A stretch of 64,000 bases of DNA, from assembly GCA_003149635.1 (NCBI GenBank), contig QCWI01000001.1, positions 250,588 through 314,587 on the forward strand. The letters run 5' to 3'. Source of the DNA: Fluviicola sp. XM-24bin1 (lineage in GTDB: Bacteria > Bacteroidota > Bacteroidia > Flavobacteriales_D > Crocinitomicaceae). Below the pieces are notes generated by a model that saw only the letters and a program-made list of their open reading frames with translations, had not been told where the DNA came from and did no database searches. Positions 6,463-34,034 of this stretch are shown one piece after another (positions within the stretch are counted from its first letter, which is position 1; each line of letters opens with the position of its first letter). The translations under genes were made by a program, and so were the position numbers.

Positions 6463-7311
6463 ATGAAAAAAGTAATTAGTTCACTAGCCATTGCTGCGGC
6501 AATCACATTTGGATTTACCGGAGTAACTTATGCTCAAGACGAGGTTGATGGAGCTGAAATGGATAGCACGGAGATGGTTGATGATTCAACTGAAGCGGAG
6601 CCAGAGGTAGATCCTGCTTCAAATTCAGCTTCACAAGTACAAGAAGGTGAAGAGGAAGAGGCAGACAAAGAAGATTTGGGAATTATCGCTAAAATCAAGC
6701 AAAAGTTCATCGAAGGAGATCCAGTATGGATGTCACCAGTATTGATCTGTTTGATTCTTGGATTGGCGCTTTCAATTGAGCGTATCGTTTACTTGAACCT
6801 TTCAACTATCAACACAAAACGTTTCTTGGATGAGGTGGAAACTGCATTGAAGAACGGAGGTGTAGACGCAGCGAAAGATGTTTGTCGTAACACACGTGGA
6901 CCAATTGCTTCTATATTCTATCAAGGACTTGATCGTGCCGATGAAGGTATCGATGTCGTAGAGAAATCAGTAGTTTCTTACGGTGGAGTTCAGATGGGAC
7001 TTTTGGAGAAAGGATTGTCATGGTTATCATTGTTCATCGCCTTGGCACCAATGCTTGGGTTCTTGGGAACGGTAATCGGTATGATCTTCGCCTTCGAACA
7101 AATTGTAGCAGACGGACAGGTATCCCCAATTACAGTAGCAGGTGGTATTCAGGTATCCCTATTGACAACGGTATTTGGTTTGATCGCTGCGATCGTATTG
7201 CAAGTATTCTACAACTATATCGTATCTAAAGTAGACGGTATTGTAAATGATATGGAAGATGCATCAATCTCATTGATCGATATGATGTTGAAGCACAAGG
7301 CAAACGCCTAA
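6463..7311 (+). CDS. exbB: ExbB/TolQ-type proton channel subunit with acidic N-terminal extension
   Basis: A 282-residue MotA/TolQ/ExbB-family protein. Residues 1-24 form a signal-like hydrophobic segment ending TYAQ. Residues 25-70 are extremely acidic (runs such as EGEEEEADKED). The ExbB core follows, with membrane helices at about 89-110, 184-211 and 226-250, and the signature ITVAGGIQVSLLTTVFGLIA in the last two. With ExbD, ExbB forms the inner-membrane stator-like channel that uses the proton motive force to drive outer-membrane transport or related work. It is the first gene of a four-gene operon. A cleavable signal plus acidic spacer is common in Bacteroidota ExbB but absent from the enterobacterial protein. 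Confidence 0.9.
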   Translation: MKKVISSLAIAAAITFGFTGVTYAQDEVDGAEMDSTEMVDDSTEAEPEVDPASNSASQVQEGEEEEADKEDLGIIAKIKQKFIEGDPVWMSPVLICLILGLALSIERIVYLNLSTINTKRFLDEVETALKNGGVDAAKDVCRNTRGPIASIFYQGLDRADEGIDVVEKSVVSYGGVQMGLLEKGLSWLSLFIALAPMLGFLGTVIGMIFAFEQIVADGQVSPITVAGGIQVSLLTTVFGLIAAIVLQVFYNYIVSKVDGIVNDMEDASISLIDMMLKHKANA

Positions 7312-7348
7312 GCCAATCATTAGTTAGAAACTTGTAAAAAAATTAAAA

Positions 7349-7834
7349 ATGGATAATAAGAAATTTGATCTGGCGATGAATGTCATCAAATACGCCATCG
7401 GTATCATCGGTGCCATTGCGTGTATTTGGGTATTGACTTCAAACCCAGGTTCTGAGGCTTTAGAAAAGCCACAAGTGCGAGCTGATTTCGCGGAGTCTGG
7501 TTCCATTTCAATGGCAATCAACTACACGGTAATCATTATCGGCGCAGCACTAGCTGGAGTACTATTGTTCTTCGTTTTCCAGTTGGTGACAAACACTAAG
7601 AAGACAGCACTTTCCATTGCAGGAATTGTTGCCGCTTTTGTATTGTACATGATTCTTCGATTGATCGGAACATCAGATACAAATGAAACTTTGCAACTTG
7701 GTCAAAACTACCACGTATCAGATGCTACTTTGGACGCTACAACAGCAGGTCTTTGGGTAGTAATCATCGGAATCATAGTAGGATTCTTGTTAGCGGTTCT
7801 AGGGCCGTTCCTTCTTGGAAAATACAGAAAATAG
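7349..7834 (+). CDS. Four-helix membrane protein of the ExbB/ExbD operon, unknown function
   Basis: A 161-residue protein with hydrophobic segments at about residues 13-31, 56-79, 87-106 and 135-155, and short polar loops. I recognise no named domain. It lies between exbB and the first exbD, seven bases before the latter, an arrangement found repeatedly in Bacteroidota, so it is probably a partner or assembly factor of the proton motor. Function is inferred from position only. Confidence 0.82.
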   Translation: MDNKKFDLAMNVIKYAIGIIGAIACIWVLTSNPGSEALEKPQVRADFAESGSISMAINYTVIIIGAALAGVLLFFVFQLVTNTKKTALSIAGIVAAFVLYMILRLIGTSDTNETLQLGQNYHVSDATLDATTAGLWVVIIGIIVGFLLAVLGPFLLGKYRK

Positions 7835-7840
7835 ACACTT

Positions 7841-8629
7841 ATGGCGAAGAGAGATATACCGGAAATTAACGCAGGATCGATGGCGGACATCGCTTTCCTA
7901 CTTCTCATTTTCTTCCTTGTAACAACTACAATGGAGAAGGATACGGCATACATTCGCTATATCCCGCAGAAGTTAGAAGATGTTCCACCTCCACCAGAGA
8001 TTGAGAATCGTAACATTTTTGAGATCAAAGCGAACAGCGCCAATCAATTGATGATTCGTGGTGAGATTATTGAGAATCCTGACGATATTTCCGAACGTGT
8101 GTTGGAGTTCTATAGAATGAACGAAAAGTTAACTGCTTCTCAAACGCAAGCTTATATTCAAAATTCAAGCTACAAGGGAATTGACTTTCCGTTCTATAGC
8201 CGTGTAACAATGCAGGGTATTGATGATGAGATTAACAGAAATACTGATGAATTGGAAAGAGCTGAGGCAGATGATGATGAAAACCTCATTACCTTCTACA
8301 CCAAAGTTTTAAAGGACTGGGATAAGAAAAAAGCCGCCCTAAAAACTTTGGGAGGAAGAGAATTGGTAGAGATTCACCCTCAAGCGCACGTCAGAATTGT
8401 AGTACAGCAGCAGACAGAATACAAATTGTTCGCTAAGATTCACTCAGAGATTCAAGAAGCATTGATCGAATTGAGAGATGAAGCGGCGCAAGAGTATTTT
8501 GATGATACGTACTCGAAAATGACGAAGCGCTTGGATCAGGACAAGGATGATAAGAAAGGTGACCGTAAAAAGGTTGCTGCTCTAGAAGTTTTGTTCCCAG
8601 AACGAATCATCGAAGTTAAACCGAACTAA
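7841..8629 (+). CDS. exbD: ExbD-family proton-channel subunit (long form)
   Basis: A 262-residue ExbD/TolR protein with one membrane helix (about 13-31) carrying the conserved proton-path aspartate (Asp16 in MADIAFLLLIFFLV), a short PPPPE linker and a large periplasmic part. The periplasmic part is about twice the length of enterobacterial ExbD: it has ANQLMIRGE (about 67-75), DFPFYSRVT (115-123), a charged helical insert (125-165), then HVRIVVQQQTEYKLF and IQEALIELRDEAAQEYF, ending LFPERIIEVKP. This periplasmic region has a clear lipoprotein counterpart in the window at 31396-32283. Third gene of the operon. Confidence 0.9.
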   Translation: MAKRDIPEINAGSMADIAFLLLIFFLVTTTMEKDTAYIRYIPQKLEDVPPPPEIENRNIFEIKANSANQLMIRGEIIENPDDISERVLEFYRMNEKLTASQTQAYIQNSSYKGIDFPFYSRVTMQGIDDEINRNTDELERAEADDDENLITFYTKVLKDWDKKKAALKTLGGRELVEIHPQAHVRIVVQQQTEYKLFAKIHSEIQEALIELRDEAAQEYFDDTYSKMTKRLDQDKDDKKGDRKKVAALEVLFPERIIEVKPN

Positions 8630-8640
8630 TACTATTTTCT

Positions 8641-9153
8641 ATGTCAAAGTTTAGAAAAGAAAATAAGAAAGGAGCTCCTGGAGTAAACACTTCATCGCTA
8701 CCGGATATCGTATTTATGTTGTTGTTCTTCTTCATGGTAGCAACTACGACGAAAGAATCGGATCCAACGGTAGAAGTGAAGCGTCCCGAAGGAGTTAGCG
8801 CAACGGATTTAACACCGTACAAACAGCGTTCAGAGATCGACTTCCTTTACATTGGACAACCTCGAAATAAAGCACGTGCAGCAGACTTTAAACTAGGTCA
8901 TGCATTGTTCTTGGACAACGTGGCACAGCCGCAACCAGGAGAGCTTTATTCAACAAACAGTATTGCTCAATGGAAACTGGACAAAATGAACCAGAAGCCG
9001 TCGAACATGAATGAGCCAATTTCGAACGTAATTACTTGTATCAAGGCCGATCAGGGTGTACCTACGATCTTGATCTTCGATATTCGTGAGGCATTGCAAA
9101 ACATTAATGCATTGAAAATTGCATACGCTGTAGAAGATAAGTCAGCGATTTAA
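8641..9153 (+). CDS. exbD: ExbD-family proton-channel subunit (short form)
   Basis: A 170-residue ExbD/TolR protein with a basic N-terminus (FRKENKKG), one helix (about 20-38) with the conserved aspartate in SLPDIVFMLLFFFMV, and a periplasmic domain ending LKIAYAVEDKSAI. It starts 12 bases after the long ExbD. Two unequal ExbD genes beside one ExbB suggest a mixed ExbD dimer in the channel. No tonB gene follows; the operon ends at a strong terminator. Confidence 0.9.
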   Translation: MSKFRKENKKGAPGVNTSSLPDIVFMLLFFFMVATTTKESDPTVEVKRPEGVSATDLTPYKQRSEIDFLYIGQPRNKARAADFKLGHALFLDNVAQPQPGELYSTNSIAQWKLDKMNQKPSNMNEPISNVITCIKADQGVPTILIFDIREALQNINALKIAYAVEDKSAI

Positions 9154-30841: not shown

Positions 30842-31399
30842 ATGGAATTCGAATCCTATCAAACGATTAAGGCATTACACATCATTTTTATGGTGAGTTG
30901 GTTCGCGGGCTTGTTCTATATCGTGCGTTTGTTCATTTATCATACCGAAGCGCAGGCGAAAGATGAAGCGGCGAAAAAGATTTTGTCGGATCAATTTGAA
31001 ATCATGGAGAAGCGCTTGTGGTGGATCATTACTACTCCGGCAATGATTCTGACCTTCGTCTTTGGATTCTGGATGCTATTCGAGCGATGGGAGTACTTTT
31101 TCGAAACACCGGCAGGCAGATGGATGCACATCAAATTGGCCTTTGTCGGATTACTCTTAGTTTATCACTTCGTTTGCCAGAAGATCATGTTTGACCTAAA
31201 ACGCGGGAAGTTTGCTTGGAAATCGAACATGCTGCGTTTGTGGAACGAAGTTGCCACCTTGGCCTTGGTATCTATTGTATTTATCGTGATGCTGAAAGAT
31301 TCCATGAACTGGATCAAAGGCACTGTTGTCTTTTTTGCTGTGGCCCTCGGATTGATGGTTGCGATTAAGATGTACAAACGTTTTCGTACAAAATCCTAA
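30842..31399 (+). CDS. hemJ: Protoporphyrinogen IX oxidase, HemJ type (CopD-like membrane protein)
   Basis: A 185-residue protein with five hydrophobic helices. The N-terminus IKALHIIFMVSWFAGLFYIV followed by RLFIYHTEA is diagnostic of HemJ, with the histidine that binds haem; the second conserved block is WWIITTPAMILTF and RWMHIKLAFVGLLLVYH. HemJ oxidises protoporphyrinogen IX to protoporphyrin IX in haem synthesis and replaces HemG/HemY in many Bacteroidota. ATG 30842 is chosen over TTG 30818 because the promoter lies between them. It overlaps the 3' end of the convergent lipoprotein gene by four bases. Confidence 0.88.
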   Translation: MEFESYQTIKALHIIFMVSWFAGLFYIVRLFIYHTEAQAKDEAAKKILSDQFEIMEKRLWWIITTPAMILTFVFGFWMLFERWEYFFETPAGRWMHIKLAFVGLLLVYHFVCQKIMFDLKRGKFAWKSNMLRLWNEVATLALVSIVFIVMLKDSMNWIKGTVVFFAVALGLMVAIKMYKRFRTKS

Positions 31400-32283
31400 A
31401 TCGGCGGAACTTCAGGTAAATCTTCCGTAACTTTTATTTCTTCAACCGGAGGCGGTGGTGGAGGAACTGTAGATAAAGTCATAACGGGTTCTTCCAAATC
31501 GGATGTTTTGACACGCTGCAGGTAAGCTGGATACATCTCCTGTAGGTAAAGAAATTGTTTTTTAGCTGTTGCATCTTTCCCAGAATTCACGCGGATGACT
31601 TGATAACTAGTACCGAATTTTTCCTGAGCCAGTTCGTTACGCATGTTGTAGATGTTCGTTGCAATTTGTGTCTCCAACTCGGAAACTTTGTCTTCGGATA
31701 CACCATCGGAAATAGCATAACGGATCAAAGCACCCAAATCAATAAAGCCGATTTCTTGACCGTCATCCAGTGCATCGAACGCCTTGATGCGTCGAACATG
31801 ACGTTGTAGGTACAAGGCCACTTTCAGATCCGTTTCAGCGTTTTTCTTTAATTGTTCGATGAAACTTTGGTAGGAATCACGCGTGAAGTAGCTGAAGAAG
31901 GGATAGTTGTAATACCTGTACTGACCGTCTCGAATGTAAAGCGATGTCTTTTTATTTCCTAGGTATCGATTGCCATTAAAAAAGGTGATAATTTCGGATT
32001 TTAAACCGTCCCAATCCGATTTTTCACCGCGAATGGTAAGGGTACCGTCCGCCGCAAGTTCAAGATCCATCAGCATTCTTGGGTACACTACCATATCTTT
32101 ATCTGATCGCAAAGCCATGGGATAATCATTCGTGGATTCCGTAATGATGTGCTGATAATCGATCGGTTGTTGAGGTTTCTGTGTGTTATTGGTGTCGCGC
32201 AAGGTTACGTCAGACTCCGATTCTCCACCGCAGGAAGTCAAAATGGTAAGGCAGACAGCGATAAATAAATAGTGAAGTTTCAT
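31396..32283 (-). CDS. Lipoprotein homologous to the periplasmic domain of ExbD, with proline-rich tail
   Basis: A 295-residue lipoprotein (lipobox ILTSC, Cys18) with no other membrane segment. Residues about 71-260 match the periplasmic half of the long ExbD at 7841-8629 in order: GTLTIRGE (80-87) with NQLMIRGE; YNYPFFSYFT (125-134) with GIDFPFYSRVT; IATNIYNMRNELAQEKF (207-223) with IQEALIELRDEAAQEYF; FLYLQEMYPAYLQRVK with VAALEVLFPERIIEVK. It then ends with a proline/acid-rich tail (TVPPPPPPVEEIKVTEDLPE) like the linker of TonB proteins. It lacks the ExbD helix and proton-path aspartate, so it cannot be a channel subunit; a soluble partner, competitor or peptidoglycan/outer-membrane anchor of a proton motor is possible. 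Function is inferred. Confidence 0.78.
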   Translation of the reverse strand: MKLHYLFIAVCLTILTSCGGESESDVTLRDTNNTQKPQQPIDYQHIITESTNDYPMALRSDKDMVVYPRMLMDLELAADGTLTIRGEKSDWDGLKSEIITFFNGNRYLGNKKTSLYIRDGQYRYYNYPFFSYFTRDSYQSFIEQLKKNAETDLKVALYLQRHVRRIKAFDALDDGQEIGFIDLGALIRYAISDGVSEDKVSELETQIATNIYNMRNELAQEKFGTSYQVIRVNSGKDATAKKQFLYLQEMYPAYLQRVKTSDLEEPVMTLSTVPPPPPPVEEIKVTEDLPEVPPI

Positions 32284-32288
32284 TGCGA

Positions 32289-34034
32289 TTAGGATTTATA
32301 CGTGTCAATAAAGATGCGAATGTTTCGTAAATCAAAAGTCTCTTTGCCTTGATTCCAGATGTAAATTTTTACGCGTTCGAAGTCGTTGAAATGATCGGGA
32401 ATTTGTCCACTGAAAGAAAGATCCGTCCATTCCTTTATTCCAGCGAGTTTGTCATTGTAAAGCGGAATTGCGTGGTAATGAGTGAAATCGGAATCATCAT
32501 CCGTGGCATGGATGACAATTGATACATTTTCCAGAGGTTTTTTGGAATTCTTCTCCAGCCAAACTCGGAAATACATGCGTTCGTTGGTGCGATTTTTAGG
32601 TGTTTCAAATTCGACGGTTTGGATAAATTCATCGGACTCCGAATAATGGTGCACTTCTTCATTATACGCCAGAATTGCTTCATCAATCCGCTCTCCAAAA
32701 GGAACCACAGATCGACCATAACGCCATCTTGCGAAATTATCTTCTTTCCAAACAGCTAGACTCGCGAAATAATTCTCGGAGGTAAATCGCTGATCGATCA
32801 TGTAACCGCTAATGTAACTTCCGAATCGAATTACACCTAGAAGCGCAAAAGCGGCTACACCAGTCCAAAGCCATTTACGACGATCTTTCAGTACGTAAAT
32901 CATCGGAATCAGCAGGAAGAAACTGTGTTCTGTGAATGGTCGATTTCCAAAGCTGGTTTCGTAATCCCAGCACCACCACGAAGAAATGACAAAGGCGTTC
33001 AAAAGAAAGTAAATCCACCAGGCAAACAAGAAATACTTGTTTTTTCGGATCAAAAAGAACGAGGCAATCGCTGAGATCAATACTATTGGAGAATGCAAGA
33101 ACAGTCCATTTCGGAAACTGAACAAGTTTTCAAAAAATGCAGGATGTCCAAAATTGAATCCTTCTCCCGAGTACGACCAATTCAGCCAATGACCTGATTG
33201 CCATTTCCACAAGAGTAACTGAAGCGACACAACAGCTACGAATCCTGCGAATGCCCAGATCAAGAGAAGTGCCTTGTTCGAAAAGATCATTGTGAAAATG
33301 CGTTTCAAATCGTTCCAATCTTCAAACAGTAATGGAATTGTAAGAACGATCAATAAGTTCGTCGGACGCACCAGAACGATTAGTCCCAGCGTCAATCCAA
33401 TACCAATGACGTATTTCTGTTTTTCTGAATCCTTGAATTTCAGGATGAGGTAAGCGAACAGTCCGAAGAGAAAAAAGCTGTAGTGATGTGATAATCCCAA
33501 TGTCACCGTATTGTACATCAGTAAGGTGGTTGCGGTATAGAGTCCGATTACCAACCAAGGAGCGACGGTTTTCAGATCGGGAAAACGCAATTGAATGCAT
33601 CGATACAAAACCCATAACCCCATTAAACTGTAGAACAAACTTCCCAGTAAAAATGCGAGCTCGAAGGGTTCGGAATACCCATCTACTGGAGCACCAGAAA
33701 CAAGGGCGGCCAGGCATCCGGCTCCGAAAAAAGGGGCTTGCATAACCGCAATACCGGGAAAGTATTTGTTGAATTTCCGACCCTCCTCATTCTGATACAA
33801 ATAGTATTGGTTAAAATTTGGTTGGGCGTTGCGCGTTTCAGCCTCCAGAGAAGCTTCAAACGTTGGGTCATTGTACATGAAAACCGCCGGAAGATAGGCG
33901 TAGTAGCCACGTCCATCAGAACGAATCACATTCTTGAATTCGCCTTCCAACAAGTTGTTGTCCACAGTGAAATACGCAAGGAGTAGTGCAAACCACAACA
34001 AGGGATTTTTCAATATGGGCAGAAAGCGATTCAT
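32289..34034 (-). CDS. Multi-pass membrane protein, GT-C glycosyltransferase-like
   Basis: A 581-residue protein with about ten membrane helices and a C-terminal extracytoplasmic beta-rich domain (from about residue 450). The first loop after helix 1 contains IRSDGRGYYAYLPAVF, where GT-C enzymes place a catalytic acidic residue; the helix pattern also fits lipid-linked-sugar transferases (GT39/GT87-like). If so, it would move a sugar from a polyprenyl-phosphate donor to a periplasmic acceptor. Five bases separate it from the ExbD-like lipoprotein gene, and it is the first gene of that pair. A specific family cannot be assigned by eye. Confidence 0.68.
   Translation of the reverse strand: MNRFLPILKNPLLWFALLLAYFTVDNNLLEGEFKNVIRSDGRGYYAYLPAVFMYNDPTFEASLEAETRNAQPNFNQYYLYQNEEGRKFNKYFPGIAVMQAPFFGAGCLAALVSGAPVDGYSEPFELAFLLGSLFYSLMGLWVLYRCIQLRFPDLKTVAPWLVIGLYTATTLLMYNTVTLGLSHHYSFFLFGLFAYLILKFKDSEKQKYVIGIGLTLGLIVLVRPTNLLIVLTIPLLFEDWNDLKRIFTMIFSNKALLLIWAFAGFVAVVSLQLLLWKWQSGHWLNWSYSGEGFNFGHPAFFENLFSFRNGLFLHSPIVLISAIASFFLIRKNKYFLFAWWIYFLLNAFVISSWWCWDYETSFGNRPFTEHSFFLLIPMIYVLKDRRKWLWTGVAAFALLGVIRFGSYISGYMIDQRFTSENYFASLAVWKEDNFARWRYGRSVVPFGERIDEAILAYNEEVHHYSESDEFIQTVEFETPKNRTNERMYFRVWLEKNSKKPLENVSIVIHATDDDSDFTHYHAIPLYNDKLAGIKEWTDLSFSGQIPDHFNDFERVKIYIWNQGKETFDLRNIRIFIDTYKS

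Follow-up and report, generated by a model that had tools for sequence, protein, structure and literature searches.

A lipoprotein with an ExbD-type periplasmic domain and no ExbD transmembrane helix in Fluviicola sp. XM-24bin1

ExbD is usually treated as part of a proton motor. In E. coli, the periplasmic ExbD dimer binds a single, proline-flanked TonB D-box strand (PMC10907165), and Serratia ExbD was reported to bind peptidoglycan transiently (PMC10771500). Pal and PorE are described as outer-membrane lipoproteins that provide tethering to peptidoglycan, and the survey describing them reports no identifiable tol-pal loci in the phylum to which this bacterium belongs (PMC12204202).

We analysed a window of 64,000 nucleotides from Fluviicola sp. 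XM-24bin1 (contig QCWI01000001.1, positions 250,588 to 314,587); the window is this whole stretch, and coordinates given without a locus name refer to it. The open reading frame of the original prediction, 31396-32283, proved exact and lies on the minus strand (frame 32283→31396). The lipoprotein gene, its parts and its neighbours are as follows.

31396..32283, minus strand: lipoprotein gene, 295 amino acids, with an ExbD-type periplasmic domain and no ExbD transmembrane helix (open reading frame and homology)
32230..32283, minus strand: signal peptide II and lipobox LTSC, with Cys18 at 32232-32230 (sequence)
31501..32079, minus strand: ExbD-like domain, residues ~69-261, with a helical insert (~108-180) common to the long ExbD (BLASTP, alignment, model and hhalign)
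31399..31500, minus strand: proline/acid-rich C-terminal tail, residues 262-295 (sequence; low model confidence)
30842..31399, plus strand: hemJ (UPF0093), convergent with the lipoprotein gene and overlapping it by 4 bases (family search)
32289..34034, minus strand: GT-C-like membrane protein, upstream of the lipoprotein gene and adjoining hemJ in relatives (weak model match)

The encoded protein consists of a signal peptide with the lipobox LTSC, a tether of ~50 residues, the ExbD-like domain and a proline/acid-rich tail that ends in PVMTLSTVPPPPPPVEEIKVTEDLPEVPPI. The signal peptide, predicted to be of type II, carries the lipobox and its cysteine (MKLHYLFIAVCLTILTSC; CLTILTSC, Cys18), and the lipobox of two orthologues reads LASC and LSSC. 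It occupies the place of the single N-terminal transmembrane helix of the ExbD/TolR family, with its conserved aspartate inside ExbB, and this helix is absent; the earlier view of a lipobox in place of the proton-path helix was thus borne out by both sequence and alignment.

Compared with the long form of the ExbD/TolR family (PF02472) found in Bacteroidota, the lipoprotein has the same block order, the helical insert and the C-terminal YP segment, and the homology of its periplasmic domain was shown against such long ExbDs. Unlike ExbD, it has no N-terminal transmembrane helix and so no proton-path aspartate, and it has a lipobox, an added proline-rich tail, no Pfam match and no location in an exbB cluster. 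It shares with TonB a proline/acid-rich stretch, which is presumably periplasmic, whereas it lacks a transmembrane helix and the TonB C-terminal domain, and its tail is C-terminal and partly conserved. Like Pal and PorE as described in the survey, it would join a lipid anchor to a possible peptidoglycan-binding domain, but that domain is of the ExbD type where theirs is OmpA-like (PMC12204202). Our searches of open-licence papers on lipoprotein, soluble or helix-less ExbDs and on flavobacterial ExbDs yielded no description of an ExbD-domain lipoprotein, in agreement with the original statement that no system of this kind had been described.

Sequence relationship to the long ExbD and predicted fold

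The ExbD proteins of the window are encoded in a motor gene cluster.

6463..9153, plus strand: motor gene cluster of ExbB, a small membrane protein, the long ExbD and a second ExbD (family search)
6463-7311, plus strand: ExbB
7349-7834, plus strand: small membrane protein, flanked by the ExbB and long-ExbD frames
7841..8629, plus strand: long ExbD, 262 amino acids, homologue and possible parent of the lipoprotein, with its periplasmic part from ~7976 (PF02472, E 4.6e-12)
8641-9153, plus strand: second ExbD

The lipoprotein gene is not beside exbB or tolQ; it lies ~22 kb from this cluster, with hemJ and the GT-C-like gene as its neighbours. The small membrane protein of the cluster matched DUF4064 below threshold only, and a similar frame occupies the same place in L031 and L011.

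The central claim of the original prediction, that the lipoprotein is an ExbD periplasmic domain without the motor helix, was upheld by BLASTP, by the profile-profile score and by shuffle controls. BLASTP aligned the lipoprotein with the long ExbD at 43.9 bits (E 1e-9, 24% identity over 172 residues), and the four blocks that had been singled out fell in the same order in one alignment (GTLTIRGE/NQLMIRGE, NYPFFSYFT/DFPFYSRVT, RNELAQEKF/RDEAAQEYF and FLYLQEMYP/VAALEVLFP), in which the strand and YP motifs of ExbD are kept. The score of the lipoprotein domain was 42.0 bits, as against at most 24.3 bits in 2000 domain shuffles. When the lipoprotein was searched against its own genome (E ≤10), the sole non-self match was the long ExbD (E 6.6e-7). 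Comparison by hhalign of the three orthologue domains with 50 long ExbD domains gave a probability of 99.2 and a score of 123.2, whereas the reversed control scored 20.7 and 60 column shuffles scored at most 20.2; eight other lipoprotein domains reached a score of 278.1 against the same 50 domains. The reversed, shuffled and column-shuffled controls argue against a chance similarity of the short blocks to ExbD, which is rejected at the level of sequence.

A direct match to Pfam ExbD, which had also been envisaged, was not obtained, and the lipoprotein reaches PF02472 only by way of the long ExbD. The Pfam search of the lipoprotein returned no family at E ≤1, PF02472 included, NCBIfam returned no match, and PF02472 matched none of 10 non-helix proteins. 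A profile of nine lipoproteins searched against PDB sequences found no ExbD chain, the best match being unrelated (E 0.057). The alignment of the lipoprotein with the long ExbD continues through residues 108-180, whereas profile matches to other long ExbDs of the class break in two at this insert among the matches listed. Since the alignment spans the insert of the long ExbDs, we infer that the lipoprotein descends from a long ExbD form that carried it.

An AlphaFold model built from the lipoprotein, one orthologue and the long ExbD had a mean pLDDT of 62 and a pTM of 0.59; residues ~71-100 and 191-250 were well predicted, whereas 108-130 and the tail were predicted poorly. Going by the alignment, a predicted strand at 255-258 would fall close to where the long ExbD has its C-terminal segment. 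When the model was used to search PDB structures, ExbD periplasmic chains (8p9r, 8pek, 8vgd and 8vgc) took ranks 1-4 and 6, and the best of them had a probability of 0.98 and a TM by target of 0.64 but an E-value of 0.26; no match reached 0.001. A model made without the ExbD row (pLDDT 39, pTM 0.30) was too poor to serve as a structure control. The structural match that had been anticipated therefore ranked first in the PDB but was not significant and depended on the ExbD row. Because the PDB E-values are weak and the model fails without that row, the model is consistent with an ExbD fold and is no independent proof of it. No match at E ≤0.001 emerged from a search of a viral fold library.

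Occurrence among relatives and origin

We searched 399 genomes of the order, and 23 had a match at E ≤0.001. Three of these contain an orthologue, all in one genus (the window genome, G153 and G314; 3 of 34 genus genomes). The orthologues in G153 and G314 are 49-51% identical to the window lipoprotein, the reading frames are intact in all three genomes, and in each the gene shares a contig with the long exbD. Against 396 genomes of the class, the lipoprotein profile gave no full-length match besides the window's own at E ≤1e-6; long-ExbD domains had matches in 157 of the 396, and among the matches listed the frames were of 180-268 residues, a length typical of ExbDs.

ExbD-domain proteins without the ExbD helix were surveyed by a profile search of the 34 genus genomes and 240 family genomes together with a scan of fetched frames. 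Matches that covered no more than the initial 40-120 positions of the model (L081, L082 and similar weak rows) were counted as signal-peptide matches. Such proteins occur at several loci in 10 of the 34 genus genomes (G000, G153, G314, G276, G192, G248, G344, G234, G372 and G399). Nine of the ten have at least one lipobox-bearing form; the G399 protein has no lipobox, and a contig end truncates the G372 copy. Beyond the genus we found two further lipoproteins (L093 in G266 and L116 in G250) and two distantly related proteins that are probably secreted (L124 in G185 and, as a weak match, L121 in G407). The second lipoprotein of G153, L033, bridges the long ExbD and the lipoprotein of the window: it matches the former at 35% identity (E 5.4e-35) and the latter at E 3.4e-6.

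L033 (1504-2403, minus strand, G153 contig 48) has as neighbours, identified by eye, a frame resembling methionyl-tRNA synthetase and a possible outer-membrane protein. In L077 (5134-5670, minus strand, G314 contig 2) an L033-type C-terminal part is fused in frame with other sequence that resembles the end of a protein neighbouring L033, by appearance a deletion fusion or an assembly artefact. In three genomes (L073, L076 and L079) such lipoproteins lie beside the same methyltransferase-like gene, as judged by eye; L073 has a second copy in tandem, and a partial second copy may lie near L079. The distant proteins L124 (3334-4419, plus strand) and L121 (5028-6089, minus strand; weak) are longer and probably secreted; L124 ends in VPPPPISVEEVLGE, and by eye its N-terminal half might be another ExbD-like domain. 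A short match to the lipoprotein profile in another genus member (G387:C201:21729-21911, minus strand) has five internal stops and is possibly a gene remnant.

Synteny with hemJ and the 32289 protein had been proposed as a check. The score of the 32289 protein against the LA_3751/LA_3752 glycosyltransferase model was far below the cut-off. The neighbours of its orthologue were inspected at 13 of 30 loci, hemJ being identified by eye through comparison with the HemJ of the window. At four of the 13 (G344, G198, G372 and G393) the 32289-type gene and a hemJ-like frame converge and overlap by 4 bases, without any lipoprotein gene; the remainder comprised the G153 locus with the lipoprotein (1 of 13) and loci with other neighbours (8 of 13). 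As the pair adjoins without the lipoprotein in four relatives, the synteny carries no functional message, and an operon-based argument from hemJ and the 32289 gene was rejected as evidence of function. The same four relatives suggest that the lipoprotein gene was probably gained at this locus. The three gene-bearing genomes group by their long ExbDs (99/100), with L033 inside the group, so that the simplest reading is a gain within it, losses elsewhere being the less simple alternative.

A tree of 62 domains, with long branches and bootstrap not settled, needed three changes of label, and the lipoprotein formed a very long branch in it. None of the groupings compared was rejected, whether one clade of all 12 non-helix domains (p-AU 0.233), the orthologues with the lineage's own ExbDs and L033 (0.506), the orthologues with the other lipoproteins (0.446), the orthologues with L033 (0.405) or L033 with the other lipoproteins (0.117). 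The tree and the five one-clade tests neither demonstrate nor reject a single origin or a derivation from the long ExbD of the lineage itself. The pN/pS ratio was 0.39-0.45 for three lipoprotein pairs as against 0.22-0.28 for three long-ExbD pairs; for one pair of the 32289 gene, taken over its last 1455 bases, it was 0.26. Because synonymous sites are near saturation, the ratio shows constraint and nothing more. The lipoprotein evolves faster than the long ExbD. It is accessory: of the 34 genus genomes, 3 have an orthologue and 10 a non-helix form.

The proline/acid-rich tail

The last 35 residues of the lipoprotein include 10 prolines and 8 acidic residues. The richness behind the proposed TonB-like tail is therefore real, but the likeness to TonB is compositional only, as the Pfam search, in which no family appeared at E ≤1, gave no match to the TonB C-terminal domain (TonB_C). 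Tails were compared for 14 of 16 non-helix rows; L112 and L117 were left out, read as truncated ExbDs. PP occurs in the last 35 residues of 10 of the 14 non-helix proteins and in none of 53 distinct ExbD tails. Two of the four non-helix tails without PP (L073 and L079) are not proline tails, and the other two (L001 and L077) have five or more prolines. The contrast was weaker for at least three prolines in the tail (12 of 14 non-helix proteins versus 19 of 53 ExbDs).

Conservation of the tail is only partial, with a PxEEI(K)VTE motif in two of the three orthologues, and six TonB_C matches over the cut-off are found elsewhere in the genome. The suggestion that the tail replaces a missing TonB linker thus found no support, since the lipoprotein has no TonB_C and its genome has six matches. 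The proline-flanked, D-box-like PVMTLSTVP of the window lipoprotein is absent from its two orthologues, so that a D-box in the tail is kept as a lead only. On contig 3 of the same genome, L068 (1495-2388, minus strand) has a TonB C-terminal domain and an N-terminal cysteine-containing region, with an internal lipobox-like SLASC ahead of a proline-rich linker.

Possible roles of the lipoprotein

Our main reading, to which we tentatively assign a probability of roughly 0.4, is that an ExbD periplasmic domain was detached from the proton motor and retargeted by a lipid anchor, and acts as a passive periplasmic module binding TonB-type segments or the cell wall. The protein would be lipidated and face the periplasm, probably from the outer membrane. 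The surface-export signals of Bacteroidota lipoproteins that the cited work gives are K-(D/E)2 or Q-A-(D/E)2 (or SDDDD, SDDFE) after the cysteine (PMC5080379). Residues +2 to +6 of the lipoprotein, GGESE, match none of these, a rule that may not be this genus's, and this points to the periplasmic side near the outer membrane. The helix/beta-sheet fold of ExbD would be kept, and its edge strand and dimer groove would bind a TonB strand and, transiently, peptidoglycan. As the helix is absent, the lipoprotein should be unable to enter ExbB or carry protons, which makes passive binding the likeliest role. Such a module would capture TonB-type strands, proline segments or the cell wall on the outer-membrane side, and this capture would dock or buffer the Ton system. 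The proline-rich tail may act as a TonB-like peptide that folds back on its own groove or binds ExbD. It is considerably more doubtful that mobile outer-membrane ExbD modules catch TonB-type strands or offer their own tail so as to form a Ton- or Tol-like bridge with ExbD-type domains at both membranes.

We consider it unlikely that the lipoprotein regulates the motor, with the lipid-anchored domain forming a mixed dimer with the long ExbD or competing for TonB and thereby damping or gating ExbBD. The alignment of its domain with the long ExbD spans the insert, ExbD periplasmic domains were reported to dimerise (PMC10771500), and the two genes share a contig in the three orthologue genomes; however, an identity of ~24% may be too low for the ExbD dimer interface, and the gene is outside the exbB cluster. 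Similarly improbable is a fold kept with a changed function, whether in an accessory lipoprotein that evolves fast and has nothing to do with the Ton system or in a duplicate that is slowly decaying. Frames that are intact in three genomes at ~50% identity, a pN well below pS and the retained strand and YP motifs argue against this reading, whereas the long branch, the higher pN/pS than that of the long ExbD, the several different loci, a tandem copy and one fused or truncated copy (L077) are in its favour.

An envelope anchor, in which an outer-membrane lipoprotein would bind peptidoglycan by a TolR/ExbD-type domain and stand in for Pal, seems rather improbable. Peptidoglycan binding was reported for both ExbD and TolR (PMC10771500), and the survey detected no pal genes in Bacteroidetes, but that survey proposes PorE as the Bacteroidetes tether (PMC12204202). 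The patchy occurrence (3 of 34, or 10 of 34 for all non-helix forms) also misfits an essential tether. Chance or convergent resemblance of the short blocks to ExbD could appeal to the absent Pfam match and to the poor model without the ExbD row; with scores far above the reversed, shuffled and column-shuffled controls and with the bridging lipoprotein L033, it is hardly credible.

The natural and repeated split of an ExbD periplasmic domain from its motor provides a ready test of what the domain does alone, and TonB capture, peptidoglycan binding and dimerisation are testable activities. As no ExbD model of Pfam or NCBIfam reaches the proteins tested, they would be annotated as unknown lipoproteins. 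Should the passive module, seated in the outer membrane, bind TonB or the cell wall, it would add a component of a new kind to envelope energy transfer.
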